From Actinobacteria bacterium 21-64-8 (lineage in GTDB: Bacteria; Actinomycetota; Acidimicrobiia; Acidimicrobiales; RAAP-2): DNA of 13,617 bases. The number at the start of each line of letters is the position of its first letter. Position 1 is the first letter of the stretch. The notes below the pieces were generated by a model that was not told the origin of the DNA, searched no databases, and was given only the letters and a program-made list of their open reading frames with translations. The position numbers were made by a program, and so were the translations under genes. Below, piece by piece: positions 1-13,617 of this stretch. The stretch spans positions 1-13,617 of the forward strand of contig NCBD01000033.1 in the NCBI GenBank assembly GCA_002255315.1, read 5' to 3'.

Positions 1-75
1 TTTGTCGACGTTGACCACCTCAAAGGGCTGTCCCGGCGCCGCCACCTCCGCGATCGCCTCTTCAATACTTCGCAC
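1..75 (-). CDS. N-terminal fragment, possible acyl-CoA ligase (AMP-binding family)
   Basis: This is the first 25 codons of a leftward gene that runs off the window. The start is the GTG at 75-73. An in-frame TAG lies just upstream (117-115) and no other start codon sits between them. A G-rich stretch precedes the start but there is no clean Shine-Dalgarno. The peptide begins MRSIEEAIAEVAAPGQPFEV. An N-terminal 'APG-PFE' segment of this kind is familiar from actinobacterial class I adenylate-forming enzymes (fatty-acid--CoA ligases), where it precedes the adenylation domain. No catalytic motif falls inside the window, so the family call is a pattern-based inference. The gene is divergent from the PLDc_N protein gene at 182. 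Confidence 0.4.
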   Translation of the reverse strand, partial: MRSIEEAIAEVAAPGQPFEVVNVDK

Positions 76-181
76 TCGTGTACCCCCGCCGATGAGAAAA
101 TCTTTCCTAGCAAACTAGTCAAGATGGTGCACACCACTCGCGCAGCTCGAACGTACACTTTTTCCAACTCTAGGAGTCGCG

Positions 182-481
182 ATGTCCCACGGTCACTACC
201 CAATGTTCGAAATCTTCGTTTCGACGCTCTATCTCGCCATCATGGTGCTGTGGATTGTGCTCGTCGTACACATCTTGGCCGACGTCGTGCGCAGTCACGA
301 TCTCTCGGGTGGCGCCAAGGCGGCGTGGGTCGCACTCATTCTCGTGTTGCCATTCGCCGGCTGCCTCGTCTACTTCATCATCCGAGGTGGCACCATGCAC
401 GATCGTCACCTTCACGCCCTGCAGAGCCAACAACTCGCCTTCGAGGACTACATTCGAACGGTCGCCAACTCCAAGGAATAG
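182..481 (+). CDS. Small PLDc_N-domain membrane protein
   Basis: A 99-residue membrane protein. An N-terminal transmembrane helix (about residues 9-33) is followed by the signature of the phospholipase D-nuclease N-terminal domain (PF13396). This consists of a polar turn SHDLSGGAKAAWV (about 38-50), a second helix ILVLPFAGCLVYFI, and a basic RGG segment. The tail ends in DYIRTVANSKE. In related actinobacterial proteins a similar 'YIR-VA' segment leads into a C-terminal SHOCT motif; here the gene stops before it. Despite the name, such proteins carry no nuclease active site, and their role is unknown. The ATG is supported by AGGAG at 172-176, five bases upstream. The stop codon lies one base from the stop of the convergent desaturase gene. 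Confidence 0.8.
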   Translation: MSHGHYPMFEIFVSTLYLAIMVLWIVLVVHILADVVRSHDLSGGAKAAWVALILVLPFAGCLVYFIIRGGTMHDRHLHALQSQQLAFEDYIRTVANSKE

Positions 482-482
482 T

Positions 483-1415
483 TCAAGTGACGGGTGTCGC
501 TCGCACCGAAGCGGTGGCCTTGTCGGCCATGCGCTCCACCGTCTTCGTTACCGTCGACACGACCGTCAACAGTTCGACGCGAGCGCGCTCGGCCTCCTTC
601 GACAGTCCACAAAGGTGATCAACGTCCCACAGACTTAACACCGGGGTTAATACGTCCTTGACGTACTGCCCGAGGCCATAGATACCTTCGCGCGCGATTC
701 GTACCGCGTGGCGAGTGAAGGCGGGGATTCCCGTGCCCGGCATCGCAAAGGTGCTCACCTGGCGCGCCACCGCGATCGTCATTGCGGACGGGTCAATCGC
801 GAAGGCCGCGAGCGTGAGGTCACGGTAAAAGAGGTAGTGCTTCGTTTCGTCGCCGGCAATGAGTCCGAGTACATTGCGACCCATTTTGTCGTCCTTGGGG
901 AGCTTCGCTCCGGTATTGCGGTGAGCAATCTGAGTGGCGCGCTCTTGAAACGACACGTAAGCAATCATTTCGGCAAAATCGGGGTGACGTGGTACTTCGG
1001 CGCGCGTCATCTGTACGCGGCGTCCGTCTTCGAGCAACGTGGGATTGATGCAGCGACTCACGTGCACCCAGTCGCGCATGATCATCGAGTGACGATTCTC
1101 TTCCATCGTCCACTGGTAACTCCAGTCACGAATTGGGTGGCGCTCGGGCGCGTGCGAGAGAATCGAGTCCGTGTAGTACGGCAGATTGTCTTCGGTCAAT
1201 AGGTTGACGTAAATCGAACTTCGCACGCCTTCGGCCACCGGGTAGTCCTCGGGCGCCCAAGGTCGCGCTTCGAAACTCTCACCCTGGCCCCAATCAATTT
1301 GCTCGTGGGGATACCAGTCACGAGGAGACTCCAGGTGACGGTTATACAGTCGCTCGACGTCAGGAGCAAGCTCTGACAGCAGGTCGACGCGACTAGTGGG
1401 GAGTCGTTTGTTCAC
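483..1415 (-). CDS. Acyl-ACP desaturase (ferritin-like diiron, DesA type)
   Basis: A 310-residue soluble diiron enzyme of the fatty acid desaturase type 2 family (PF03405), the group containing mycobacterial DesA1/DesA2 and plant stearoyl-ACP desaturase. Members use O2 and reduced ferredoxin to insert a double bond into an acyl chain held on acyl carrier protein. The expected iron ligands are all visible on four helices: E75 (in TEDNLPYY), E106 and H109 (in EENRHS), E158 (in SFQERA), and E190 and H193 (in DETKHY). Length is normal for the family. The start is GTG at 1415-1413, with GAGAGG upstream. Bacterial members are often misannotated as generic ferritin-like proteins. Some DesA proteins have weak or unproven activity, so the substrate is not known. 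The gene diverges from the MFS gene across a palindrome at 1490-1511, which may regulate both. Confidence 0.9.
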   Translation of the reverse strand: MNKRLPTSRVDLLSELAPDVERLYNRHLESPRDWYPHEQIDWGQGESFEARPWAPEDYPVAEGVRSSIYVNLLTEDNLPYYTDSILSHAPERHPIRDWSYQWTMEENRHSMIMRDWVHVSRCINPTLLEDGRRVQMTRAEVPRHPDFAEMIAYVSFQERATQIAHRNTGAKLPKDDKMGRNVLGLIAGDETKHYLFYRDLTLAAFAIDPSAMTIAVARQVSTFAMPGTGIPAFTRHAVRIAREGIYGLGQYVKDVLTPVLSLWDVDHLCGLSKEAERARVELLTVVSTVTKTVERMADKATASVRATPVT

Positions 1416-1489
1416 TTCGTTGTGGGCCTCTCAATTGGTCCGACAGTTACTCCCAACCCTAACCTTTACAACTCGACGACAATCATTGA

Positions 1490-1511
1490 CTTTGTGCGGA
1501 TTTGCACAAAG
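1490..1511. promoter_or_regulatory. CRP/FNR-like operator palindrome between divergent genes
   Basis: A perfect inverted repeat with 8-base arms, CTTTGTGC (1490-1497) and GCACAAAG (1504-1511), separated by six bases. It lies in the 118-base gap between the desaturase start (1415, -) and the MFS start (1534, +). Its core TGTGC-N6-GCACA has the exact spacing of the CRP/FNR-family consensus TGTGA-N6-TCACA used by mycobacterial CRP and GlxR. A TTGACT hexamer (1486-1491) overlaps its left edge and could be a -35 element, but I see no good -10 box. The palindrome is seen directly; the regulator family is an inference. Confidence 0.5.
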
Positions 1512-1533
1512 CCTGAACTACCCTGGTCACCTC

Positions 1534-2799
1534 GTGAAACTCCTCAACACGCTCGTTCCGGCCGATTTCCGTGCCGCGGTGACCTGGCCCGTGCGCCGGT
1601 TCTACGCCTGCACGTTCATTAACTGCTTTGGCTTCGGGCTGATTTTGTCGTTGTTTGTTGTCTACTTACACAACGTTCGGGGATTCTCCGAGGGCTTCGC
1701 CACCCTCTTATTGGCCGTGAGTTCGGTCGTGGGCCTCGCGACGGCCCCTCTGTGGGGAACGTTCATCGACCGCTTCGGGCCGGTGCGCGTGTCGCTGGTG
1801 TCGAGCGTGCTGGACGCGGGCGCCCTCGTCTACTGGGCCTTCGTGCACACGAGTCTCGAAGCATTCATTGCCGCGCTCATGCTCGCGGTCGTGGGCGGTG
1901 CGGGCTGGGGCCCTGGGACCGTGCTCATGGCTCGACTAGTTGCGGAGGAGCATCGCCAGCGCGCCTTTGGCGTCAACTTCATGCTGGTGAACTTAGGTAT
2001 TGGTTTTGGCGGCCTCGTGTCGGCGTCGGTCGTCGACCTCCACCACCCCGGGACGTTCGAAGTGCTCTACGTCGCCAACGCCTTCATCATGCTCGTGGGT
2101 GCGGCGCTTTTTTTCACGCTCTTGAGCTACGGAGGGCCCGTCAACGAGCACCACGATGATCCAAAACTCCGCGACGAGGGTTGGCGTGAGGTGCTCGCCG
2201 ATCGTCGACTCGTTCGCTACGTGGTCGCCGCGGTGTGTTTGATGCTGGGCGGTTACGGCGCCATTGACACTGGACTCAGTCTCTTCGTCGTGAACAACCT
2301 GCACGTCTCGGTGCACAGCATTGGAATCATCTTCTTCTTTAATACCTCGACGATCGTGCTGGCCCAGCTGTCCATGCTGAACCGCATCGAGGGGCACAGT
2401 CGCGCGCGGATATTGGCGCTCGTGGGGGTCTGCTGGTTTGTCTTTTGGGTAATTCTCGCCTCGGCACTCGCGCTGCCGAAGTTTCTCGCGATTGCGTCGA
2501 TTTGTGTCGCGATGGTCGTCTTCGCCATTGGCGAGATCATGTTCCAACCCGTTGGCAACGCGATGGTCAACGAGATGGCTCCCGAACACCTCCGCGGTCG
2601 CTATAACGCCGCGGGCAGTTTCGCCTGGGGTGTCTCGGGCACCTTGACTCCCGCGTTGACGTCGATCTACTTCAGTTTTCACTTCGGGAACTGGTGGCCC
2701 ATCGGCACGGGCGTCACGGCCCTGGTCGGTTCCGCGATGATGTTGAATCTGCGCCGCTCGCTCAGCGCGAAAGAAGACGGCCGTGTCGCGGTCGCCTAA
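1534..2799 (+). CDS. MFS transporter
   Basis: A secondary transporter of the major facilitator superfamily, about 421 residues with the usual run of about 12 hydrophobic helices. The loop-2/3 motif A is recognisable as GTFIDRFGPVR (about residues 75-85), and a second-half counterpart PEHLRGRYNAAGSFAWG lies near the C-terminus. The substrate cannot be told from sequence. Drug or metabolite export by proton antiport is the common family role. The frame is open well upstream, so the start is uncertain. I chose GTG at 1534 because it lies just past the palindrome and leaves a normal short cytosolic N-terminus; GTG at 1579 is the alternative. Neither has a clear Shine-Dalgarno. Only three bases separate its stop from the downstream acetyltransferase, so the two are almost certainly co-transcribed. 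Confidence 0.88.
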   Translation: MKLLNTLVPADFRAAVTWPVRRFYACTFINCFGFGLILSLFVVYLHNVRGFSEGFATLLLAVSSVVGLATAPLWGTFIDRFGPVRVSLVSSVLDAGALVYWAFVHTSLEAFIAALMLAVVGGAGWGPGTVLMARLVAEEHRQRAFGVNFMLVNLGIGFGGLVSASVVDLHHPGTFEVLYVANAFIMLVGAALFFTLLSYGGPVNEHHDDPKLRDEGWREVLADRRLVRYVVAAVCLMLGGYGAIDTGLSLFVVNNLHVSVHSIGIIFFFNTSTIVLAQLSMLNRIEGHSRARILALVGVCWFVFWVILASALALPKFLAIASICVAMVVFAIGEIMFQPVGNAMVNEMAPEHLRGRYNAAGSFAWGVSGTLTPALTSIYFSFHFGNWWPIGTGVTALVGSAMMLNLRRSLSAKEDGRVAVA

Positions 2800-2802
2800 C
2801 GC

Positions 2803-3813
2803 ATGACCCTTCGTCGAATCAACGCCCACGACGCACACGCGTTTGGTCAGTGGTTCGAGGTCTTGCGTCGAAGCGAGCACGATCGAAACGGCGGCGTCGA
2901 AGACGGCTGGCTACCCGATGAAATACGAGCACGATCCCTTGACGCGACCGCGTCGACGTACTTACAGCTGTTCGCCTTCGAGGTCGACGGGGCAATCGTT
3001 GCCGTCGCGTGGCTCGAGGTCACCCGCGACGACAATTTGACGTCGGCCTATGCAACTCTCGAGGTCGACCCCGCTCATCGGCGCCGCGGTCACGGAACGC
3101 GCGCGCTCGAGGCCCTCGAGCGGACCGCCGTCGCCCAAGGTCGACGCACGCTGGTCGTCGCGACGAAGGAGACCAAGCACGAGTGGGGCCGCAGCGCGTC
3201 ACGCTTCTTCGCCCCCCGCCACGGCTACCTCGTAAGTGAAGAGAACGTCGAACGCGACCTCGAGTGGCCACGGCCCCCTGGCGCGCTCGACGAACTCAAC
3301 GCCCGGTGGCTGCCCTACGCGCACGACTACGAGATTCTTTCCTGGCGAGGTGCCATCGACGATGCCTTCGTCGAGGACCGTGCCCACCTGTCGAGCGTGA
3401 TGCCCGTTGAAGCGCCCCACGGAAGTCGCCCCGTCGAGGCCGAACACTGGGACGCTCAGCGCGTACGAACACACGAACACACCGTTGACGCCATGGGTCG
3501 TGACTTACTAGTCAGCGTCGCACGGCATCGGGCAAGTTCGCGGCTCGTAGGCTTTAGTGAGCTCACCGTCTCGCGTGAGCGACCTGGTCTCGCCTACCAA
3601 TGGGACACGCTCGTGCTGCGCACGCACCGAGGACACCGACTCGGCGGCCTCATGAAGGTGGCGAACCTGGGTCAACTCGAACGTTTCAACTACGCCACGA
3701 CGCGCGTCGTTACCTTCAACGAAACCTCTAATTTCGCCATGATTAACGTCAACGAGCAACTCGGCGCGACCACCGGTGGTGGCTACGTACTCTGGGTCAA
3801 GTACTTCAAATAA
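2803..3813 (+). CDS. Tandem GNAT-family N-acetyltransferase
   Basis: A 336-residue protein with two GNAT folds in a row. The N-terminal half carries a strong acetyl-CoA pyrophosphate-binding motif A, VDPAHRRRGHGTRAL (about 88-102). The C-terminal half carries a second version, RTHRGHRLGG (about 273-282), followed by the strand-loop TFNETSNFAMINVNEQLGA (about 304-322), typical of GNAT motif B. Both halves may bind acetyl-CoA, or one may be structural. Its acceptor is unknown. Coupling to the MFS gene (three-base gap) suggests the pair handle a related small molecule, perhaps modification plus export, but this is inference. The layout recalls mycothiol synthase MshD, but I do not see specific MshD features. 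The 3' end overlaps by 8 bases the restored reading frame of the convergent DUF429 gene. Confidence 0.8.
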   Translation: MTLRRINAHDAHAFGQWFEVLRRSEHDRNGGVEDGWLPDEIRARSLDATASTYLQLFAFEVDGAIVAVAWLEVTRDDNLTSAYATLEVDPAHRRRGHGTRALEALERTAVAQGRRTLVVATKETKHEWGRSASRFFAPRHGYLVSEENVERDLEWPRPPGALDELNARWLPYAHDYEILSWRGAIDDAFVEDRAHLSSVMPVEAPHGSRPVEAEHWDAQRVRTHEHTVDAMGRDLLVSVARHRASSRLVGFSELTVSRERPGLAYQWDTLVLRTHRGHRLGGLMKVANLGQLERFNYATTRVVTFNETSNFAMINVNEQLGATTGGGYVLWVKYFK

Positions 3814-4506
3814 GCGCGGGATCGAGAAAATCGAGTGAGCGACGAGGAATATGAATCCACCCCTCCACCGCCGCACGCGACTGGCGTAGGCAACGAGCGC
3901 ACTAATCAGCGCGTCAAACACGTGATCAGAGGCGACGCACGCCTCGAGTAGTTCGGGCGCGAGGTGCAGCCACGGAGCTCGACCGAGGAGTGATGCAAGC
4001 ATGCACTCGCGCTGCGCGCGTTGTTCGGAGCGCTTGCGTGCCGTCGTCGCCCCCTTGTAGGTCGCACGGCCCTGAAGGAGTTGCCACGCGTGGAGCGCGG
4101 GGCGCGGGTAGACCTCGACGAGTCGACCAGTACCGTCGCGTGGTTGCGGTGCACCCCACATCGCGGCCCACTGGACCTGCAGACCGGCGGCGCGCATCGC
4201 GACGCCGCCAATCAAATCGGCCGACACCGACAAAGGTGACGTGCCAGTCGTCTCTTTGACGAAGCGATCAGTCTCGCAGGCGCCGTGACGCTTGATTGCC
4301 TTGACAAAATCAACCGGCCAACCGAGCGGCGCGTCGAGACCGACGACGGTGTGGCGATCCACTAGCGACACGAGCGTCGCGTCGTCGGCGGCGCTAACGC
4401 CCGCGAGAGAAGCATCTAGGGAGTCGGTTCGTAGATCAAGGAGCGCGACGCCCGTATTCTGCGGACGTACCGCAAGGTCTACGCCAAGGAACCTGCGTCG
4501 CTGCAC
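3806..4506 (-). pseudogene. DUF429 family protein (predicted RNase H-like), frameshifted near its C-terminus
   Basis: A DUF429 protein, a family predicted to have an RNase H-like fold but with no settled function. Visible hallmarks are FLGVDLAVRPQNTG near the N-terminus, VVGLDAPLGWP, then the ETDRF...SPLSVSADLIGG block, and a C-terminal FDALISALVAYAS. After that the frame veers into sequence unlike the family and runs on to 3508, antisense to the GNAT gene. In the -1 frame the family's expected ending appears immediately: AAVEGWIHIPRRSLDFLDP, stopping at 3806. One missing base around 3871-3885 explains this: 701 + 1 = 702 bases, an exact 233 residues plus stop. GTG at 4506 is the best start, four bases after the LLM stop, with AAGGA very close to it. 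The shift could be a real mutation or a sequencing error. It is co-directional with, and probably in an operon with, the LLM gene. Confidence 0.75.
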
Positions 4507-4510
4507 GTCC

Positions 4511-5412
4511 TTAGACTCGTAGTCCCTCAACAACGAGGCGACGCGCCGCGTCGTCAAGGTGATAGGGCACGTAGAGCCCAGCGCGCGTCACCACGTCACC
4601 GAAGCGCGCGAGCAACGCGGGTGCGACCTCGGGCACTTCGGCGACGATGGAAAAAGCGTCGAGAACCTCGTCGCTGATGAGCGTACCCATTTCAACCCAG
4701 GCACCTCGGCGCGAGAGTTCATTGAGCGTGCCCTGCAGCTCAGCCCAGCCGTGCACTTCCAGTACCCCGCGGTACGCGGGAGTCGAAGCGTAAAAGGCAA
4801 TCTGTTGGCGCACCGCCGTTGCGGCGGCGACGCGCTGATCGAGTGAACTCCCCGTCGTGATCAAACCCGACAGTGAGATTTGGAAGTTCTCCACGGGTCG
4901 CTCACGCTTGGCCATGCCTCCCCGACCGCGGCGAGCAAGACCTTCGGCGCGCCGAAGGGATTGGGGCCGGGGTTAAAAAACGGTGTCATCAAGGTGTGGC
5001 GATAGAACTCACCTCGAAACGCCAGTGGCGCATCGTCGTTCCAGCAATCCCAAATTGCGCGCAACGCGAGCACGTATTCACGCATGCGCGCCGCGGGCTT
5101 TGACCACGGCATCGAGTAACGCTTCTCAATATGGGGCTTTATCTGCGAGCCGAGTCCTAAGAGCAGTCGACCCCGCGAAAGCAGTTGGAGGTCGTTAGCC
5201 ATCGTCGCGGTAATCAGGGGACTGCGCCCAAAGGCCACGACGATACCGGTGCCGAGTTCCACACTCGACGTCGCGCTCGCCGCGCCCACCAAGGTCACGA
5301 GAGGGTCATGACCCGTTTCGGCAGCCCAAATCCCGTCGTACCCTTCACTTTCGAGCGAACGTGCCGCGGTGGCGACGTCGCTCGAAAATGCAATATCCGC
5401 GTCAACTTTCAC
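4511..5412 (-). pseudogene. LLM-class F420-dependent oxidoreductase, internal deletion and frameshift
   Basis: A TIM-barrel flavin/F420-dependent oxidoreductase of the bacterial luciferase-like family, close to the TIGR03617 type. The start is GTG at 5412, with GGAGG six bases upstream. The first frame matches the family well: EGYDGIWAAETGHDP, SSVELGTGIVVAFGRSP, the hallmark GLGSQIKPHIEKRYSMPWS, then MTPFFNPGPNPFGAPKVLLAAVGEA. At about 4908-4920 it shifts frame, resuming as MAKRERPVENFQISLSG and ending normally at 4511. The family has about 45 residues between 'AAVG' and the equivalent of 'NFQISL'; here only about 11 remain. Roughly 33 residues are therefore missing along with the frame change, consistent with a loss of about 100 bases. 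The fragments cannot make a complete barrel, so the gene is probably dead unless the deletion is an assembly error. It lies 49 bases after the methyltransferase. Confidence 0.75.
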
Positions 5413-5461
5413 AAATCCCCTCCGTCGAATCGAACCTATCGCGAAGCCGCGTGGCGTGAAC

Positions 5462-6259
5462 TCACTCGCTGGTGGCGAGCAGCACCCGGAGCTCATTTTC
5501 TAGGTGTACTGAACCGTCCGAGCGAATGAAGGGTTTGAGCGACGTGCGTAGCGCGCTGTCTACCGCTTCGTCGCCGAAGAGATTCACGACGCGTTGCACT
5601 GGTCCCGACGATTTCATGGCCCGCACGGCAACGGCGACGCCGTCAAAGTCCCAGGGGCTCGAAACGTATTCCTCAGTGACGTTCGTGAGCCCGGCCATTT
5701 GCATAAAAAACGGTACGCGCTGATCGGCCGCGAGTGGTGGTGGCGCGCCCGCAGGTGCGCGCGCAAACAACGCTCGTAGTGCACGAAAGTGCGCGGCGCC
5801 TTCGCACCTCTCCTCCCGTCCCCAAGTGACCAGGACGAAACGCGCGCCACGTTTGGCGACGCGGCGCGCCTCACGAAGCGCGCCCACGGGATCTGTGGGG
5901 TACTGAAATGAGTTAAAACCCGACACCACGTCAAAGGTGTCATCGGCGTAGGGCTGGTGGGTCATGTCGCCAACGAGAAAGTTCCCCGTCACCACTCGCT
6001 CACGGGCAATGGCAATCAACGCCGGTGCCGCATCGATGCCGCTGATTATGACCCCCGACGGCTCGGCGAGGACCATCGCGCCCCCGGCCCCACAGCCCAC
6101 GTCCAAGAGTCGCTCGCCGACTTGGAGGTGGGCCAACTCCAGAGCGCGTCGCACGGCGGGAAAGGAATGACCTTCGAGCAACTCGGCCCACGTTGTTGCC
6201 GCCTGGCTCCACAACACACCTTGTTGGCGAGCTTCGTCCGACATCGTAGGTTCGGCCAC
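5462..6259 (-). CDS. Class I SAM-dependent methyltransferase
   Basis: A 265-residue methyltransferase with the Rossmann-like class I fold. The SAM-binding motif I is LLDVGCGAGG (residues 51-60). The acidic motif II residue is D76 in SGIDAAP, followed by GNFLVGDMTHQPYADDTFDVV (motif III/IV region, about 92-112) and VLVTWGR. This arrangement resembles small-molecule methyltransferases of the Methyltransf_11 or UbiE-like kind; the substrate is unknown. The start is GTG at 6259 with AAGGAG five bases upstream on the minus strand, preferred over the internal ATG at 6244. It leads a leftward trio with the LLM and DUF429 genes and is itself intact. It diverges from the acyl-CoA synthetase gene. Confidence 0.85.
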   Translation of the reverse strand: MAEPTMSDEARQQGVLWSQAATTWAELLEGHSFPAVRRALELAHLQVGERLLDVGCGAGGAMVLAEPSGVIISGIDAAPALIAIARERVVTGNFLVGDMTHQPYADDTFDVVSGFNSFQYPTDPVGALREARRVAKRGARFVLVTWGREERCEGAAHFRALRALFARAPAGAPPPLAADQRVPFFMQMAGLTNVTEEYVSSPWDFDGVAVAVRAMKSSGPVQRVVNLFGDEAVDSALRTSLKPFIRSDGSVHLENELRVLLATSE

Positions 6260-6373
6260 TCACACTCCTTGGCACGGCGGTCCTCGCGAACATCCTCGTA
6301 GGTCCCAAACGTCGGGTCAAGTAGGGCGAGCTACTTTTCATCCAGCTGACATAATCAAGTGAGGTGGGCGACC
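6260..6373. promoter_or_regulatory. Divergent promoter region between methyltransferase and acyl-CoA synthetase
   Basis: This 114-base gap must hold the start signals for both outward-facing genes. For the rightward gene a CATAAT hexamer (6350-6355) is a plausible -10 box and GAGGTGG (6361-6367) is a good Shine-Dalgarno; no clear -35 is visible. For the leftward gene a TTGACC hexamer appears on the minus strand, but no convincing -10 follows at the normal spacing. The promoter calls are tentative. Confidence 0.35.
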
Positions 6374-7936
6374 ATGGCTGAACTTCTTCGCACGAGTGCG
6401 CACGAACGTCCCAACGACGTCGCGATTCGTGACGAATACGGCGCACTCACATGGCGTACCTTCAATGACCACGTGAATGAACTGATTCACTTTCTACGTC
6501 GTGTCAACGTTAGACAGGGCGACACTATTGCAATCTTGTCGAGGAACCGTCGCGAATTCCTCGAGGTCGCCACGGCGGCGACGCACGCCTCACTCATCTA
6601 CGTGCCAATGAATTGGCACTGGGTCAGTCGTGAACTGGCTTACGTACTTTCGGACGCGGACGTCAAGGCACTCTTCGTCGAGGATCGTTTCGCCGACGTC
6701 GCACGCGAGGCGCTCGACGATTCCGCTACGAGTCAGTGCGCCACGCGCGTCGTCTTTGGTGAACACGCGCGTGGATTTGACGCCTACGACGACCTCGTCC
6801 GCGGCGTCGCTCACGACGAACCCCGTGACCAGGCGAGCGGTGGCCCAATGTTTTATACCTCGGGCACCACCGGATTTCCCAAGGGAGTGCGCTCAAACTT
6901 CAACGCCACCGGCCAGTCTCTCGCGCGCGTGCAGAACCTCGCCGCCGCCGTCGCCACGGTGCTCAAGATTCCTCCACGAGGCGTGACGCTGCTCGACGGT
7001 CCGGCCTACCACTCGGCCCAGCTCGCGTTGTCGCTATATCCGCTGCTCGGTCTGGCCAGTTCCGTCGTGACCCGCGCGCACTTTGACGCGGCGAGCATGC
7101 TCGATCTCATCGACGACCACCAGGTCACGAACGTGCACCTGGTGCCGACACAGTTCATTCGACTCTTAAAACTCGACGACGAAGTACGCGCCCGCTTTGA
7201 CGGGTCCTCACTTGCTTCGGTCATTCACGGAGCTGCCCCCTGCCCGCCGTCGATCAAGCGCGCCATGCTCGAGTGGTGGGGCCCGGTCATTCTCGAGTAC
7301 TACGGTGGCACCGAAAGCGGCTTTCTCACCGTGGCCGACGGCCCGACGTGGCTCGCGCATCCCGGCACCGTGGGTCGCGTACTGGCTTCGAATGAACTTG
7401 TGCTTATGAACGATGACTACGGCGCCTGCGCACCGGGCGAGGTGGGACAGATCTACTTCAAGAGTCTGAGCGGGGGGGACTTTCGCTATCACAAGTCGCC
7501 CGACAAGACCGCTGCGGCGCACTTCGGCGAGGGTTTGGGCACCTTGGGCGACGTGGGCTACCTCGACGACGACGGCTACCTTTTCTTGAGCGACCGAAAG
7601 ATTGACATGATCATCAGCGGTGGCGTCAATATCTACCCCGCCGAAATCGAGGGCGTCCTTGTCACGCACCCGGCCGTCGCGGACGTGGCCGTCTTTGGTG
7701 TCCCCGACGACGAGATGGGTGAACAGGTGAAAGCTGCCGTGGAACTCGTCGAACCCTCGCTCGCGAGTGCCGAGCTCGCGAGCGAAATCCAGACTTTTGC
7801 GCGCGCGCAGCTCGCGAGTTTCAAGGTACCGCGCTCGATCGACTTTGTCGTCGAACTCCCCCGCCACCCCACCGGCAAGCTCTACAAACGACTCTTGCGC
7901 GATGCGTATTGGCCCGACGCCGAACGCCAGATTTAA
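6374..7936 (+). CDS. Acyl-CoA synthetase / AMP-dependent ligase
   Basis: A 520-residue class I adenylate-forming enzyme that activates a carboxylic acid to acyl-AMP and then to acyl-CoA. All core motifs are present. The phosphate-binding loop MFYTSGTTGFPKG spans residues 159-171. The substrate/adenine motif is YYGGTES (309-315), and the ATP-binding aspartate motif is GDVGYLDDDG (392-401). The hinge DRKIDMIISGGVNIYPAEIE is at 407-426, and the catalytic lysine motif PTGKLYK at 499-505 (K502). The hinge and the YYGGTES form resemble fatty-acid or cyclohexanecarboxylate-type CoA ligases, but the acid cannot be fixed from sequence. ATG at 6374 is chosen over GTG at 6359 because GAGGTGG sits about seven bases before it. 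It heads a rightward run with the DUF4232, aldolase and monooxygenase genes. Confidence 0.92.
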   Translation: MAELLRTSAHERPNDVAIRDEYGALTWRTFNDHVNELIHFLRRVNVRQGDTIAILSRNRREFLEVATAATHASLIYVPMNWHWVSRELAYVLSDADVKALFVEDRFADVAREALDDSATSQCATRVVFGEHARGFDAYDDLVRGVAHDEPRDQASGGPMFYTSGTTGFPKGVRSNFNATGQSLARVQNLAAAVATVLKIPPRGVTLLDGPAYHSAQLALSLYPLLGLASSVVTRAHFDAASMLDLIDDHQVTNVHLVPTQFIRLLKLDDEVRARFDGSSLASVIHGAAPCPPSIKRAMLEWWGPVILEYYGGTESGFLTVADGPTWLAHPGTVGRVLASNELVLMNDDYGACAPGEVGQIYFKSLSGGDFRYHKSPDKTAAAHFGEGLGTLGDVGYLDDDGYLFLSDRKIDMIISGGVNIYPAEIEGVLVTHPAVADVAVFGVPDDEMGEQVKAAVELVEPSLASAELASEIQTFARAQLASFKVPRSIDFVVELPRHPTGKLYKRLLRDAYWPDAERQI

Positions 7937-8021
7937 TGATGCTCAACGGCCCGTCGGGCGCCGGGCGCCGTAAGAAAGTCGCTCGACACGACAGGTACCT
8001 CGTAGACGCGAAAAGGAGACC

Positions 8022-8549
8022 ATGAACTCGCCTCGCCCGCAACTCGTGCGTGTGGTGGCCTTGACGACCGCGCTCGCGTACGCGCCGCTGTTAAGTGGCG
8101 CGTACGCGAGCGCGAGCGTGCACCAAACGCCCAACTGTAAGTCAATCCAGTTAACACTGAACCGTGGCCAACGCCACGTCGTCGCCGGCGCCACTTACAC
8201 CGCCCTCGTCATCACCAACGTCGGCACCACCTGTGCGATTTGGGGTGTGCCCGCCATCCAGCCGGTCAACGCCGCCCGTCGACCAATCGGCCCCTTCGCG
8301 CGCAATCTCTCCATGGGTGAGATGCCGCTTCGCCACGTGCTGGCGCGCGGCGGATCGGTCAGCGTCTCGTTTGGCGTCACGAAGACGACGAGCGTACCGT
8401 CGTCAACCTGTCACGCCGCTCGCGCGGCGGGCGTCGTCGTCACCCTCGGACCATTCTTCACGCGACGATTTCTCGCCATGCCTCTCTCGGTCTGCACCGC
8501 GAGTGCGTCGACCACGACGCGCCTGCTCGCCCCCGGCACGAAGGGCTAA
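8022..8549 (+). CDS. Secreted DUF4232 protein
   Basis: A 175-residue exported protein with a signal peptide: a short basic N-terminus, a hydrophobic core and a likely cleavage after AYA at residues 27-29. The mature part fits DUF4232 (PF14016), a beta-sandwich found on the surface of, or secreted by, actinobacteria. Its pattern shows as C39, then TALVITNVGTTCAIWGVP (about 60-77, C71), with two further cysteines near the C-terminus that could form disulfides. The family's function is unknown. There is no lipobox, so free secretion is more likely than a lipoprotein. AAGGAGA ends five bases before the ATG. A 46-base near-perfect hairpin lies within the signal-peptide codons (8069-8114). It sits 85 bases after the CoA ligase and 77 before the aldolase, and may be a bystander in the metabolic run. 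Confidence 0.78.
   Translation: MNSPRPQLVRVVALTTALAYAPLLSGAYASASVHQTPNCKSIQLTLNRGQRHVVAGATYTALVITNVGTTCAIWGVPAIQPVNAARRPIGPFARNLSMGEMPLRHVLARGGSVSVSFGVTKTTSVPSSTCHAARAAGVVVTLGPFFTRRFLAMPLSVCTASASTTTRLLAPGTKG
8069..8114. repeat. Long perfect hairpin inside signal-peptide coding sequence
   Basis: Arms 8069-8086 and 8097-8114 are exact reverse complements over 18 bases. A G-U pair (8087/8096) and a C-G pair (8088/8095) extend the stem to 20 pairs, closing on a six-base loop TGTTAA (8089-8094). The stem is GC-rich, holds a central CGTACG, and starts about 47 bases after the ATG. It covers codons 16-31, which encode ALAYAPLLSGAYASA. No U-run follows, so it does not look like a terminator. Confidence 0.85.
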
Positions 8550-8626
8550 GTCACGTCACGCCCACCAACTCGTGGCTGCTACGTTCGTCACTGAACACGA
8601 GTGCGTGACTGACGAAAGGTGTCCCG

Positions 8627-9388
8627 ATGGTGCCCATGCCTATGCCCCAACCACCGATTTTCCAAAGCCTCGCCGACGAGCGCCTCCACCGTAAGCAGCG
8701 ACTCGCCGCCGCCTTTCGACTCTTTTCCAAGTTTGGCTTCGACGAAGGGGTCGCTGGCCACATCACGGCTCGCGACCCCGAACTGATCGATCACTTCTGG
8801 GTCAACCCCTTTGGCATGCACTTTGGCCACGTGCGAGCGTCGGATCTGATACTCGTCAATGAACACGGCAAAGTCGTCGAAGGCAATCGCCCCGTGAACG
8901 CGGCCGCCTTCGCCATTCACTCCCAGGTACACGCCGCGCGCCCCGACGTCGTAGCCGCCGCACACGCACACTCGGTGTACGGCAAGTCGTGGTCGACGCT
9001 CGGTCGTCACCTCGACCCCATTACCCAAGACGTGTGCGCCTTCTTCGAAGACCACGCCGTCTTCGACGACTACACCGGCGTCGTGCTCGACACCGAAGAG
9101 GGCAAGCGCATCGCCCACGCCCTCGGCGACGCCAAAGCCATCATCTTGCGCAATCACGGGCTCTTGACGGTCGGTCACAGCGTAGAAGAGGCGGCGTGGT
9201 GGTTCATCACGATGGAGCGTTCGTGCCAGGCGCAACTGCTCGCTTCGGCGGCTGGCACACCGATTCACATCGAACCCGACATGGCGCGTCTCACGCGGGG
9301 CCAGGTGGGCTCGCACCTGGCGGGCTGGTTCAGTTTTCAACCACTCTTTGATCGCATCGTGCGCGAACAACCTGACCTCTTAGAGTAA
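8627..9388 (+). CDS. Class II aldolase/adducin-fold protein
   Basis: A 253-residue protein of the class II aldolase/adducin N-terminal family (PF00596). The zinc-binding histidines of the fold are in place: H113 and H115 in AAHAHSVYG, and H177 in LRNHGLLTVG. Family enzymes include fuculose- and ribulose-phosphate aldolases/epimerases and several decarboxylases. This subgroup, with the long N-terminal SLADERLHRKQRLAAAFRLF, is common in actinobacteria and proteobacteria and its substrate is mostly unassigned. The predicted catalytic acid is not obvious, so aldolase activity should not be assumed. AAAGG precedes the first ATG at good spacing, although two more Met codons follow within six residues. 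It is followed 62 bases later by the monooxygenase in the same direction. Confidence 0.88.
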   Translation: MVPMPMPQPPIFQSLADERLHRKQRLAAAFRLFSKFGFDEGVAGHITARDPELIDHFWVNPFGMHFGHVRASDLILVNEHGKVVEGNRPVNAAAFAIHSQVHAARPDVVAAAHAHSVYGKSWSTLGRHLDPITQDVCAFFEDHAVFDDYTGVVLDTEEGKRIAHALGDAKAIILRNHGLLTVGHSVEEAAWWFITMERSCQAQLLASAAGTPIHIEPDMARLTRGQVGSHLAGWFSFQPLFDRIVREQPDLLE

Positions 9389-9450
9389 GGACGCGGACGC
9401 ACCTCGGCGGGGTCGCTCTAGAGTCGGGTGAAACGTTCGAGGGGGAAATT

Positions 9451-10929
9451 GTGAAGGACGACCACACCGCGACGCACTTCGACGTCATCATCGTGGGCGC
9501 CGGTATCTCGGGCATCGACGCGGCGTACCACCTGCAGCGCGACTGTCCCGAACGAACGTTTCTCGTGATTGACGCACTCGAAAGCTTCGGTGGTACGTGG
9601 CTCACGCACAAGTACCCCGGCGCGCGTTCGGACACCGACCTCTACACCTTTGGCTACTCCTTTAAGCCCTGGACGGGAGACCCCATCGCGAAGGCGGAGC
9701 GCATTCGCGACTACATGGGCGAGGTCATCAGCGAGAACGCGCTCGATGAGCACATCAAGTATCGCCACCGCCTCGTCGAGGCGGCGTGGTCGAGTGACGA
9801 TCAGACCTGGACGCTGCGCGTGGACGACGAAGCACACGAACGACGCGTCGACTTGAGTTGTGAGTTCCTGTGGATGTGTCAGGGCTACTACCGCCACGAA
9901 GTGGGCTACACGCCTGACTGGCCCGGCCTCGCCGAGTTCGAGGGGCGCGTCGTCCACCCCCAAACGTGGCCCGATGATCTCGACCTCTCGGGCCAAGAGG
10001 TCCTCGTCATCGGTTCGGGTGCGACGGCGGCGACGTTACTGCCCGCGATCGCGGACACGTGCGCGCACGTCACGATGCTGCAGCGATCGCCGACCTACTT
10101 CTTTTCCGGTGAGAACCGCGACGAGCTGGCCGATCAACTGCGCGCGCTCGAGGTCAACGATGAGTGGATTCACGAGATCGTACGGCGCAATCGACTCGCA
10201 CAACTCAAACTCCTCACCGACATTTCACTCGCCGAACCCGAGTTCGCCGCGGCCGAGTTAATCAACTTGGTGCGCGCGGAACTGCCCGAGGGCTTCGACG
10301 TCGAGACGCACTTCACGCCGCGCTATCGACCCTGGCAACAGCGCATCGCCTACGTACCCGACGGCGACCTCTTTAAGGCCATCACCTCGGGAAAAGCGTC
10401 GGTCGTCACGGACGATATCGAACGCTTTAGCCGGTCGGGAATTACGTTGAAGTCGGGTGAACAACTACGTGCCGATGTCGTTATCACCGCGACCGGCTTC
10501 GAGTTGAGCGTGCTCGGTGACGTACATTTCACCATTGACGGCAACGAACTTGACCTGTCCGAGACGGTTACCTATCGCGGCATGATGTTCTCGGGCGTAC
10601 CCAATCTCTGCTGGATTTTTGGCTACTTTCGCGCGGCGTGGACCCTGCGGGCCGACCTGGTGTGCGGGTACATCGCTCGGATGCTCAACTACATGAGCGC
10701 CAATAATTTGCACCAAGTTGTGCCCACCTTGCGCGAAGAAGATCTGAGCGAGGCGCCGCTCGCCTGGATCAGCGAAGAGCAGTTCAACCCGAGTTACCTG
10801 CGACGTTCGATGCACTTGATGCCCAAACGACTCGCCAAACCCGAGTGGGGCCACACGCAGGACTACTGGCTCGAACGCGAGGTACTGCCAACCCTCGCGC
10901 CAAACGACGACTGCTTGCAATTTCGCTAG
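9451..10929 (+). CDS. EthA-like Baeyer-Villiger flavin monooxygenase
   Basis: A 492-residue FAD/NADPH monooxygenase very close in motif order and length to mycobacterial EthA (489 residues), the enzyme that oxidises ketones and activates ethionamide. The FAD-binding GxGxxG is VGAGISGI near residue 15. It is followed by GGTWLTHKYPGARSDTDLYT (the flavin-monooxygenase GGTW region). The Baeyer-Villiger fingerprint FxGxxxHxxxW is present as FEGRVVHPQTW. The NADPH-binding Rossmann motif is VIGSGATAATLLP, followed by HVTMLQRSPTYFFS. The C-terminal ATGFEL and WTLRADLVCGYI segments also match EthA. The start is GTG at 9451 with GAGGGGG upstream. The natural substrate is probably a ketone, giving an ester or lactone. 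With the upstream CoA ligase and aldolase it could form a ketone-degrading set; that is an inference. Confidence 0.9.
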   Translation: MKDDHTATHFDVIIVGAGISGIDAAYHLQRDCPERTFLVIDALESFGGTWLTHKYPGARSDTDLYTFGYSFKPWTGDPIAKAERIRDYMGEVISENALDEHIKYRHRLVEAAWSSDDQTWTLRVDDEAHERRVDLSCEFLWMCQGYYRHEVGYTPDWPGLAEFEGRVVHPQTWPDDLDLSGQEVLVIGSGATAATLLPAIADTCAHVTMLQRSPTYFFSGENRDELADQLRALEVNDEWIHEIVRRNRLAQLKLLTDISLAEPEFAAAELINLVRAELPEGFDVETHFTPRYRPWQQRIAYVPDGDLFKAITSGKASVVTDDIERFSRSGITLKSGEQLRADVVITATGFELSVLGDVHFTIDGNELDLSETVTYRGMMFSGVPNLCWIFGYFRAAWTLRADLVCGYIARMLNYMSANNLHQVVPTLREEDLSEAPLAWISEEQFNPSYLRRSMHLMPKRLAKPEWGHTQDYWLEREVLPTLAPNDDCLQFR

Positions 10930-10932
10930 AGC

Positions 10933-10947
10933 GTTGGCGACGCCAAC
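10933..10947 (+). terminator. Short hairpin after the monooxygenase gene, possible terminator
   Basis: GTTGGCG (10933-10939) and CGCCAAC (10941-10947) are reverse complements around one base, giving a six-pair stem with a three-base loop, four bases past the stop. There is no T-run, so intrinsic termination is doubtful. The rest of the gap to 11168 shows no gene, tRNA or other structure that I can support. Confidence 0.25.
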
Positions 10948-11168
10948 TCGGGTCAAGTGTCAAGAATTGCTCGCGATTGAACGAAGCGACCCACTAACGT
11001 CGAACGTACCTGGTGAACGGGCATAATCACAACACGCCCAGGGGATAGTCTCGCCGCCATCGCCACGTACGCCCCCGTTGACATCCGCAATCAAGGCAAC
11101 TACGAGTGCAAGATCTCGGACGCTCACTCCAGTACTTGAGCCCCAACGCACCACAACGGTGCTGCACC

Positions 11169-12257
11169 CTAATACTCTCGCAAGTTCGGTGGCGCTTCTT
11201 CAGTGATCCTTGGCGCGACGCGGCCACTCTCGAAGCCCTCGAACTTGTCCAGGGGGACCTCACTGTCGAGCGCCTCCCAGTACTCCGGGCGATCGTTTCG
11301 GATTCTCTGCCATGTTTCGCGCCATCGCTCGGGCGCGACTTCGCTGAGTGGACGTCGACCCCACGGCAGCGCGACGACCACGCAACAAATAAAGAGCGAC
11401 GCAAAAATAGCGAGAAGTTCGTATCGTTGAGGCAACGCCGATCTCGTCGCGCACACGGCAATCCCTACTATTTGAGCCAGTGTGATGAGGCCGTACGTGA
11501 CCTTGGCACGAGGTCGAGTTAGCCTCACGCGTAGGCCCGAAAACCCAATAATGATTGCCCCGGCGATGAAACTGGACGTCGCGCACGCCAAGAGTAGTGA
11601 CAGCGGATTCTTCGTCAGACTGACGGCGGCGTCAAAACTTATGACGACTCCGGGCGCAAGCACCAGTGCCGTAATCACTGAGAGCAATTGATTTAAGTTC
11701 TCTCGTTGACTCGCTTCCGCGTCGCTTTTGTCCACCAGACTTGAAGTCGTCATTTCAGCGAGCAGACCATACGCTCCCGCCACTCGTTCACGAAGTTGCG
11801 CACTCAGCTCCTTCAGACTCGAGAATTCTGAACTCGCACGACTAATCTGTCCCACTTCATAGCGCAACGACGAAAGACGCAATCGACTTAACTGTGCGTG
11901 CAAACGGTGCGTTTTGTTATCGGGATCGGCGAAGGCAAATTGACCGCGAACTTCCCACAAATCTAGGTCTGAATCAAGTGCCTCCATAGCGATCTTCAAC
12001 GCAGTCTGACGGACCTGACCAAGTTCTCGTCCATCGAGTAGTTCATGCCAGCAGTCGTCATCGTCGACATGTCGCACAACAACGCGATGTTCAAACTCAA
12101 AACACGGTAGGTAGGAAACGTACGTCGACACCCCAGGTTGAAACGTGACGCACGCCACCGCGAGTGTTTTTCCGAGTGACCGGCTCTTCGCCAGGGAGGG
12201 TACGTCAACCGACTTACGAAATCCGAACGATACTAAATCCTGACACGGCGATTTCAT
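11169..12257 (-). CDS. Hypothetical membrane protein, CorA-like architecture
   Basis: A 362-residue protein I cannot assign to a named family. The start is ATG at 12257, supported by GGAGGAGG four bases upstream; the open frame continues further upstream but that extension is non-coding-like. The N-terminal soluble part (about 1-110) includes an acidic DDDD patch. It is followed by a long charged helical stretch, likely coiled coil (about 115-185), then four hydrophobic helices (about 191-210, 217-242, 254-272, 279-300) and a charged C-terminal tail. The segment ENLNQLLSVITALVLAPGVV resembles the start of the CorA/ZntB pore helix, but the GMN signature that should follow is absent (ISFDAAVS). 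CorA also has only two helices. A CorA-related, non-canonical transporter or sensor is possible. It lies downstream of nrdJ, separated by a strong terminator. Confidence 0.65.
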   Translation of the reverse strand: MKSPCQDLVSFGFRKSVDVPSLAKSRSLGKTLAVACVTFQPGVSTYVSYLPCFEFEHRVVVRHVDDDDCWHELLDGRELGQVRQTALKIAMEALDSDLDLWEVRGQFAFADPDNKTHRLHAQLSRLRLSSLRYEVGQISRASSEFSSLKELSAQLRERVAGAYGLLAEMTTSSLVDKSDAEASQRENLNQLLSVITALVLAPGVVISFDAAVSLTKNPLSLLLACATSSFIAGAIIIGFSGLRVRLTRPRAKVTYGLITLAQIVGIAVCATRSALPQRYELLAIFASLFICCVVVALPWGRRPLSEVAPERWRETWQRIRNDRPEYWEALDSEVPLDKFEGFESGRVAPRITEEAPPNLREY

Positions 12258-12368
12258 CAATCCTCCTCCGTGTTGTTGAGCGCGCAATCTCTCTGGTCCT
12301 TGACCATCGCCGTTTTCTCCATAGGGCGACCCTAGCCAAGAGTGCCGCGTTAATGAATCGGCCCGCAC

Positions 12369-12402
12369 GTGAGGAGTGGGGCCCGAAGGCCCCACTCCTC
12401 AC
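12369..12402 (-). terminator. Strong intrinsic hairpin terminator after nrdJ
   Basis: A perfect 15-pair stem (12369-12383 with 12388-12402) closes on a four-base loop. On the minus strand this reads C-TTCG-G, the extra-stable UUCG tetraloop. It lies 19 bases past the stop codon of the leftward nrdJ tail. On the minus strand no long T-run follows, so termination may be partial or may work mainly as a 3' stabiliser. It separates nrdJ from the membrane-protein gene. Confidence 0.75.
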
Positions 12403-12421
12403 GACTCCAACGGGGTCGTCG

Positions 12422-12592
12422 TTAACTGCACCCACTCGTCGCGCCGCAGCTCGAACAGACGTAACACGAGCCCGCGCGCTGCATCGAGTTACCGCACTGA
12501 AAGCACATCGGCGCGTCCAGTTGCGCGGGGCGTTCAATCGTCGCGGGCGCACTGACCACTACGGGTGGGTCGGTGAGCTCCACCACTGGCGC
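12422..12592 (-). CDS. nrdJ: C-terminal zinc-ribbon fragment of B12-dependent ribonucleotide reductase NrdJ
   Basis: The last 56 residues of a leftward gene. The final 30 residues contain a cysteine-rich ribbon, MCFQCGNSMQRAGSCYVC then SSCGATSGCS and stop. This is the characteristic C-terminus of class II, adenosylcobalamin-dependent ribonucleotide reductases, which make deoxynucleotides independently of oxygen. The preceding Pro/Val-rich linker also suits the family. The TAA is at 12424-12422. Upstream, the frame hits TGA codons (12593-12595, 12605-12607, 12611-12613), and nothing in any frame to the right resembles the roughly 700-900 residues of reductase that should be there. The gene is therefore cut at about 12590. 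The tail looks intact and is followed by a strong terminator, so the loss reflects a join rather than decay. Confidence 0.85.
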   Translation of the reverse strand, partial: APVVELTDPPVVVSAPATIERPAQLDAPMCFQCGNSMQRAGSCYVCSSCGATSGCS

Positions 12593-12600
12593 TCAGGCAC
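12585..12600. other. Probable contig join or recombination breakpoint
   Basis: On the left the leftward nrdJ frame ends abruptly. On the right a rightward frame with no convincing start begins. Both genes lack their 5' ends exactly here, facing one another, which a normal intergenic region would not produce. No repeat, attachment site or transposon end is visible at the point. The exact base is uncertain by about 20-30 bases. Confidence 0.65.
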
Positions 12601-12998
12601 GCGCTCAGCTTCAGGCGGCTCACCTAGACCTTCAGCAAGGCGAAATGCTGCTCGCACAGCGCAATGCCGATGGCGCGACGCGCGCCTTCTCGGCAGCTCT
12701 CAGTATCTCTTCCCGAATTCGGGTACTCATGCGGGCGGCACAGACGCTCAAGATTGACGCTTTCTCCTCAAGCACATCTTCAGAGTCTGGTGCGACGGGC
12801 GCCAGCACCGCGACGACCACACCCTCCGACGCACGCACCGGTGCGGCGGCGTCAAGCACGAGCGAGACCTCTGCCCGCCAAAACAAAACGGGACAAGCCT
12901 CAGGGACGCTTGGGTCGATACCAATCCAGCTTGGCGTACCCACGCTACCAATGAGCGGCAACGACAGCCGGGGGCAGGACGCTCGCGCGGGACGCTAG
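12591..12998 (+). CDS. C-terminal fragment of helical-repeat, Ser/Thr-rich protein (5' end missing)
   Basis: An open rightward frame of about 135 residues ending at TAG 12996-12998. The first part, AQARAQLQAAHLDLQQGEML onwards, is amphipathic and TPR-like, consisting of helix pairs up to about LMRAAQTLKI. It is followed by a long low-complexity Ser/Thr/Ala-rich stretch and a hydrophobic-polar end. The frame stays open back to 12501, with a possible GTG at 12573, but the residues before about 12590 look like antisense to the nrdJ tail. The true start is therefore probably lost at the join. Helical repeat plus Ser/Thr tail is a style seen in surface or periplasmic proteins of Patescibacteria (for example near DUF5667 domains); this assignment is weak. 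It is convergent with the dehydrogenase. Confidence 0.45.
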   Translation, partial: AQARAQLQAAHLDLQQGEMLLAQRNADGATRAFSAALSISSRIRVLMRAAQTLKIDAFSSSTSSESGATGASTATTTPSDARTGAAASSTSETSARQNKTGQASGTLGSIPIQLGVPTLPMSGNDSRGQDARAGR

Positions 12999-13031
12999 CG
13001 GTCCGCAGCGGGCGGCTTTCGTGCCCGAAGC

Positions 13032-13617
13032 TTATGGCTTCGTGACCGCGTTTACTACCGAACCGTCGCGGGCGATTGACTGAAGGTTTTCTATGGTGAC
13101 GTCAGTAATGCGCCGCACCGCTTCGGCAGTATCGAATGCTACGTGCGGCGTCACAATGACGCGCGGATGGTCAATCAAGTAGCGATCCGCGAGCGCCGTC
13201 CGGAGCTGGTCTTCGCTCGGGTGCGGCGCGGTGAGCAGCGCGAGCTCGTCTTTTTCATTCATCTCTCCCTCTTCTTCAAGCACGTCGAGCGCGGCGCCCG
13301 CAAGGGTACCGTCCTTAAGCGCTCCAACGAGTGCGGCCGTTTCCACTACTGCGCCGCGCGCGGTGTTAACGAGATACGCGCCTCTCTTCATTTTACTGAA
13401 GCGCTCGGCGTTTAAGAGGTGGTGCGTATGCGCGTTGTACGGCACATGGAGCGTTACGATATCCGACTCGGCAAGCAGGTCGTCGAGCGCGGCGTACGTG
13501 AAGCGGTATTCGCGCGCCAGCGCAGCGTCCGGATGCGTATCGAAACCGAGCACCTTCATACCAAAGCCGTTCCCCATGGCAATCGCGTGCATGCCGATAT
13601 GCCCGCACCCGACGACG
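13032..13617 (-). CDS. D-isomer-specific 2-hydroxyacid dehydrogenase, 5' part outside window
   Basis: The C-terminal two-thirds of an NAD-dependent 2-hydroxyacid dehydrogenase (D-lactate dehydrogenase-like). The frame is open to the window edge and begins inside the Rossmann motif VVGCGHIG, so the ATG at 13592 is internal and not the start. Next come VLGFDTHP (acidic residue after strand 2), DIVTLHVPYN, and the substrate-arginine motif LVNTARGAVVET. The ALDVLEEE cluster follows with the catalytic glutamate, and VTPHVAFDT with the catalytic histidine. Between the last two is an insert (HPSEDQLRTALADRYLIDHP) that I associate with a subgroup abundant in Patescibacteria. The reaction is reduction of a 2-keto acid such as pyruvate. 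A small hairpin (13026-13042) overlaps the stop codon. The lineage signal differs from the left part of the window. Confidence 0.85.
   Translation of the reverse strand, partial: VVGCGHIGMHAIAMGNGFGMKVLGFDTHPDAALAREYRFTYAALDDLLAESDIVTLHVPYNAHTHHLLNAERFSKMKRGAYLVNTARGAVVETAALVGALKDGTLAGAALDVLEEEGEMNEKDELALLTAPHPSEDQLRTALADRYLIDHPRVIVTPHVAFDTAEAVRRITDVTIENLQSIARDGSVVNAVTKP

Follow-up and report, generated by a model that had tools for sequence, protein, structure and literature searches.

Chimeric contigs are known from metagenome assemblies. A short-read benchmark gives 2.63 chimeric contigs per genome for SPAdes and 22.15 for megahit (PMC11261854), and such contigs are also mentioned in a second publication (PMC5390407). 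The window analysed here, i.e. the whole stretch of DNA with a length of 13,617 bases, has in common with them two taxa that are joined within genes at one point as well as a short foreign end, and no difference is known; its source genome is a fragmented MAG, in the rest of which the catalytic domain of the reductase was not found. It is highly probable that the contig is an artificial join of DNA from two unrelated bacteria, which is by far the best explanation. Such a join is nothing new in kind and would most simply be a sequencing or assembly error, not a biological feature.

Two described systems are close to the genes at the join (Table 1). With the B12-dependent ribonucleotide reductase NrdJ (NCBIfam NF005122) the left side shares the CxxC...CxxCxxC pattern, the TSGCS ending and the syntenic place, but the window lacks everything ahead of the final residues, about 53 in number. 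The right side resembles the pair of a DUF5667-type gene and a dehydrogenase gene at the patescibacterial locus L003 in its convergent order and with amino acid identities of 46% and 78%, respectively, whereas the copies in the window lack about the first 290 codons (DUF5667-type gene) and the first 145 codons (dehydrogenase gene).

The window is contig C201 of the bin G000 (1.38 Mb, 249 contigs, estimated completeness 65%). The contamination estimate of this bin is low (0.62%), which counts against a chimeric contig. WhiB (PF02467) was found in all 31 genomes of the group (G000 and 30 relatives) and in one of 14 controls, Corynebacterium alone. This distribution settles the phylum of G000 as actinobacterial, and it bears out the earlier note, which had called the left side actinomycetal. 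The order is probably Acidimicrobiales, the sole basis for this being the database names of near NrdJ relatives. Among the best 120 of 538 NrdJ matches, at least seven are named Acidimicrobiales or Acidimicrobiaceae, e.g. P0122 (100% over the G018 query); at least six, e.g. P0124, carry the names Acidobacteriota or Acidobacteria, which counts against this order. P0124 and P0125, both with the public name Acidobacteriota, are 97% identical to the NrdJ of G018 over the queried tail. Given WhiB in the group of G000, these names look wrong.

Table 1. Features of the window and their coordinates
Feature	Coordinates	Strand	Remarks
Flavin-dependent monooxygenase, left genome	9451..10929	+	G018:C11:7349-8794 matched with 77% aa identity, G499 at the DNA level
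Hairpin, terminator-like	12368..12403	.	Closely follows the NrdJ stop; stem of 16 bp
nrdJ 3' end, left genome	12422..12583	-	Last ~53 residues with zinc-ribbon cysteines; NF005122 positions 926-960 of 960
Junction	12569..12583	.	Matched by both parents, exact base indeterminate; change-point likelihood, G018 vs L003
DUF5667-type protein gene, 3' end, right genome	12570..12998	+	~First 290 codons missing; 46% identity over 127 residues to the L003 protein
2-hydroxyacid dehydrogenase, right genome	13032..13617	-	Last 194 of 339 residues, gene cut by contig end; PF02826, E 2e-46

The truncated nrdJ gene and its neighbourhood

The leftward nrdJ frame, with a TAA stop at 12422-12424, is open to 12592 (56 codons) and is then interrupted by TGA codons at 12593-12595, 12605-12607 and 12611-12613, as the earlier note had read it; two further TGA codons follow by 12634. 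The frame matched the final 35 positions of the NF005122 profile (E 7e-13), and this tail was the single match of the profile in G000. In the bin, which is 65% complete, neither a profile match of the catalytic domain PF02867 nor a further copy of the NrdJ tail was found. Judged by the catalytic domain, the criterion for NrdJ, the gene in the window is a fragment that would not encode a working reductase.

G018 and G499 belong to the same genus as G000. Both contain nrdJ as an uninterrupted frame of 1003 codons in syntenic position, near the matching flavin monooxygenase, and the linker of both genes continues unbroken at the point where the window breaks. The DNA of the nrdJ 3' end is 80-81% identical to that of G018 (12421-12580) and G499 (12426-12576). 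Among the best 120 of 538 database matches, the closest NrdJ tail was that of P0129 (946 aa; 50 of 56 residues). This protein has QPTLVELTEPPVV at the position where the window has APVVELTDPPVV, so the NrdJ match ends at about 12583, and the openness of the frame from there to 12592, about three extra codons, is due to chance.

NF005122 scored above the family cut-off in 24 of the 31 genomes searched, which agrees with an actinobacterial left side, and in 13 of 18 relatives of the same genus. Three of the remaining five (87-89% complete) showed no match and two a weak or partial one. The DNA of the nrdJ tail was matched in 72 of 99 genomes of the genus (G000 included), and no match occurred in 27, among them 12 of 59 good ones; some congeners may lack the nrdJ tail or possess a diverged version. 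The three congeners with undetected NrdJ and the two with weak matches would be in line with a single genome, whose nrdJ would have decayed where it stands and whose right side would be actinobacterial DNA that has diverged or is ageing. Furthermore, members of the genus may be able to do without NrdJ, as judged from the five relatives below the cut-off and the 27 genomes without a DNA match. This counts for a real recombination, in which microhomology-mediated joining would have brought a chromosome piece of an episymbiotic patescibacterium into the actinobacterial nrdJ, or vice versa.

In G012, nrdJ is likewise split, namely onto contigs C53 (L051) and C67 (L054), near the C-terminal linker (profile positions 865 and 924), and both pieces are located at contig ends. 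Since this split lies near the same linker, the linker stretch of nrdJ may be hard to assemble.

The monooxygenase gene serves as synteny marker with G018 and G499. The hairpin downstream of nrdJ is probably a terminator; the surrounding 61 bases fold at -42.6 kcal/mol (z -5.9 in comparison to shuffled sequences). Part of this hairpin gave one short match of 93% in G493, among the genus genomes searched with the nrdJ tail. Between the monooxygenase gene and nrdJ, where the GC content is lower (about 0.53), an orphan, membrane-protein-like ORF (11169-12395) was found, which had no significant Pfam or NCBIfam match and for which a PADLOC scan returned 0 families. At the same place G018 possesses different small ORFs, by eye similar to a PIN-type toxin-antitoxin pair, and in G499 the space comprises only about 0.54 kb; this region is a variable slot. 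Additionally, the region of an acyl-CoA synthetase (6190-8166; synthetase 6359-7936) gave no blastn match in the compared stretches of G018 and G499, in which the flanks are about 0.55 kb apart in comparison to 2.1 kb in the window. In the genus, this region was either gained or lost.

Patescibacterial genes on the right side

The rightward frame ends with its own stop at 12996-12998 and aligns with residues 295-416 of the 432-aa protein of L003; what it encodes is a DUF5667-type protein reduced to its C-terminal third. In the earlier note this frame begins at the break; it is open since a TGA at 12498, and the similarity starts at 12570. The PF18915 match of the L003 protein (residues 85-147) corresponds to a part outside the window. 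In L003 a gene for an ECF-type sigma factor adjoins the DUF5667 gene, and the DUF5667 protein is probably the partner of this sigma factor.

Beside this frame lies the gene of the truncated 2-hydroxyacid dehydrogenase. The fragment shares 192 of 194 residues (99%) with P0001, an intact protein of 339 residues encoded on a contig of 102,137 bases. A search with the fragment yielded 12 loci with identities of 58-78% and three unrelated ones with 32-42%. All 12 genomes (G031-G042) fall in the family of G031, and the titles of six loci name Kaiserbacteria, Nomurabacteria, Parcubacteria or Patescibacteria, those of the other six just 'bacterium'. In the 30 relatives of G000, matches were partial and did not exceed 51% identity. 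The nearest patescibacterial locus is L003 (bin DBS1-3.bin59; 78%), from the same family as named Kaiserbacteria genomes, and its gene order, with the dehydrogenase and the DUF5667-type gene as convergent neighbours, is that of the window. This pair occurred in none of the 19 other dehydrogenase loci, some of which are only about 3 kb long; with one of 20 loci, it is L003 that provides the evidence for the gene order of the right side. The order shared with L003 counts for a chimeric contig, its absence from the other 19 loci against one. A DUF5667 protein was encoded anywhere in the genome in five of the 12 dehydrogenase genomes. In the protein collection no DUF5667-type partner of P0001 was found, the sole match being the L003 protein.

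A parent of the right side at the species level was found neither among 397 genomes of the order of G031 (42 matched) nor among 105 genomes of its family (46 matched). The best genome in these searches was G031 (76% DNA identity); for the DUF5667-type part of the query, its match comprised 180 bases and that of G147 34 bases (order search). By homology, the right side is Kaiserbacteria-like DNA (Patescibacteria), in accordance with the patescibacterial character that the earlier note had seen in it. The match to P0001, whose next relatives are patescibacterial, speaks against an actinobacterial origin of this side and thus against a single genome.

Position of the break and change in composition

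The junction was called by a gapless base-by-base comparison with G018 and L003, in which change points within 2 ln units from the best one were kept. With G018, about 80% of the bases agree up to 12560, and the identity is down to chance level by 12590-12613; with L003, it climbs from about 0.3 to 0.75 across the region 12560-12613 and afterwards lies at 0.46-0.75. The loss of homology is abrupt and not gradual, which counts against an ageing region of one genome. The earlier note had let two genomes meet at about 12590; the break itself is real, but by homology it is located a few bases further to the left (Table 1). The matches of nrdJ and of the DUF5667-type gene end and start, respectively, at this junction, so that both genes have indeed lost their 5' ends at one point. 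Between 12566 and 12589, G018 and L003 agree at 12 of 24 bases, which is reached by 1.7% of random 24-mer pairs from both genes, and the shared patch at the join comprises perhaps up to 16 bases.

For composition, third-order Markov models of the own contigs and of G031 were compared. The change point was found at 12592. The right 1,037 bases scored +30.9 for the G031 model and still +30.4 when the homologous part of G031 was left out of the training, and all 25 windows over bases 1-12580 were negative (-4 to -52). The controls separated fully: the own-genome maximum was -2.3 in 50 unmasked windows (four of 54 windows, all N and from three of nine contigs, were left out), and 95 of 95 windows of G031 scored above 0. 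Both comparisons across the break that the earlier note had proposed, that of composition and that of best matches, separate the two sides and assign them to different taxa.

A decay of nrdJ within one genome was rejected in view of the patescibacterial identity and the composition of the right side, and it is contradicted by the 192 residues shared with P0001. The GC content, which is similar left and right of the break (0.610 and 0.624), counts for a single genome, but the clear switch in composition counts against it, and the probability of this explanation is practically negligible.

That the break coincides with a mobile element or a repeat was also considered and rejected; within G000, 601 bases around the break matched just themselves and the other arm of the hairpin. 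A search of plasmids with bases 12300-13617 gave no match, and the exact junction word of 37 bases occurred in none of the viral contigs searched.

Origin of the join

Homology assigns each side to a taxon of its own, the oligonucleotide composition switches at the break, and the cut genes are intact in relatives (nrdJ in G018 and G499, the DUF5667-type gene in L003). Genes of two phyla that are cut at one point within a shared patch, together with a tail from the second genome that reaches the contig end after about 1.03 kb, point to a chimeric contig, the explanation that had already been the first choice in the earlier note and that is best supported. Bases 1 to about 12,580 originate from an actinobacterium whose order is probably Acidimicrobiales, and the last approximately 1,030 bases from a Kaiserbacteria-type patescibacterium, presumably of the same sample. 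The join lies inside nrdJ of the first and the DUF5667-type gene of the second genome, at the short shared patch, and most probably arose through a chimeric read, through a molecule of the library or in the assembler rather than in a cell. The usual minimum word in assembly is 21. The patch common to G018 and L003, which are relatives and not the true parents, is shorter than this, which counts against a chimeric contig.

Some Patescibacteria live on Actinobacteria, and this, as well as the position of the break within a short shared patch, would suit a recombination between an episymbiont and its host. Such an event is nevertheless very improbable. It would have cost the cell almost the whole reductase, which 13 of 18 congeners keep above the cut-off, and no other PF02867 protein occurs in the bin at its completeness of 65%. 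Furthermore, neither of the incoming genes is whole, the join cutting one and the contig end the other, and no second border is seen. Just two of 194 residues of the dehydrogenase differ from P0001, so there is no sign of a long residence.

For a contig that is most probably chimeric, these observations are relevant in quality control: the last approximately 1.03 kb should be trimmed off the MAG, and neither the DUF5667-type gene nor the dehydrogenase gene should be attributed to the actinobacterium. Likewise, the truncation of NrdJ should not be taken for a gene loss. As a by-product, the join gives a hint of a Kaiserbacteria-type species that may share the sample with the actinobacterium.
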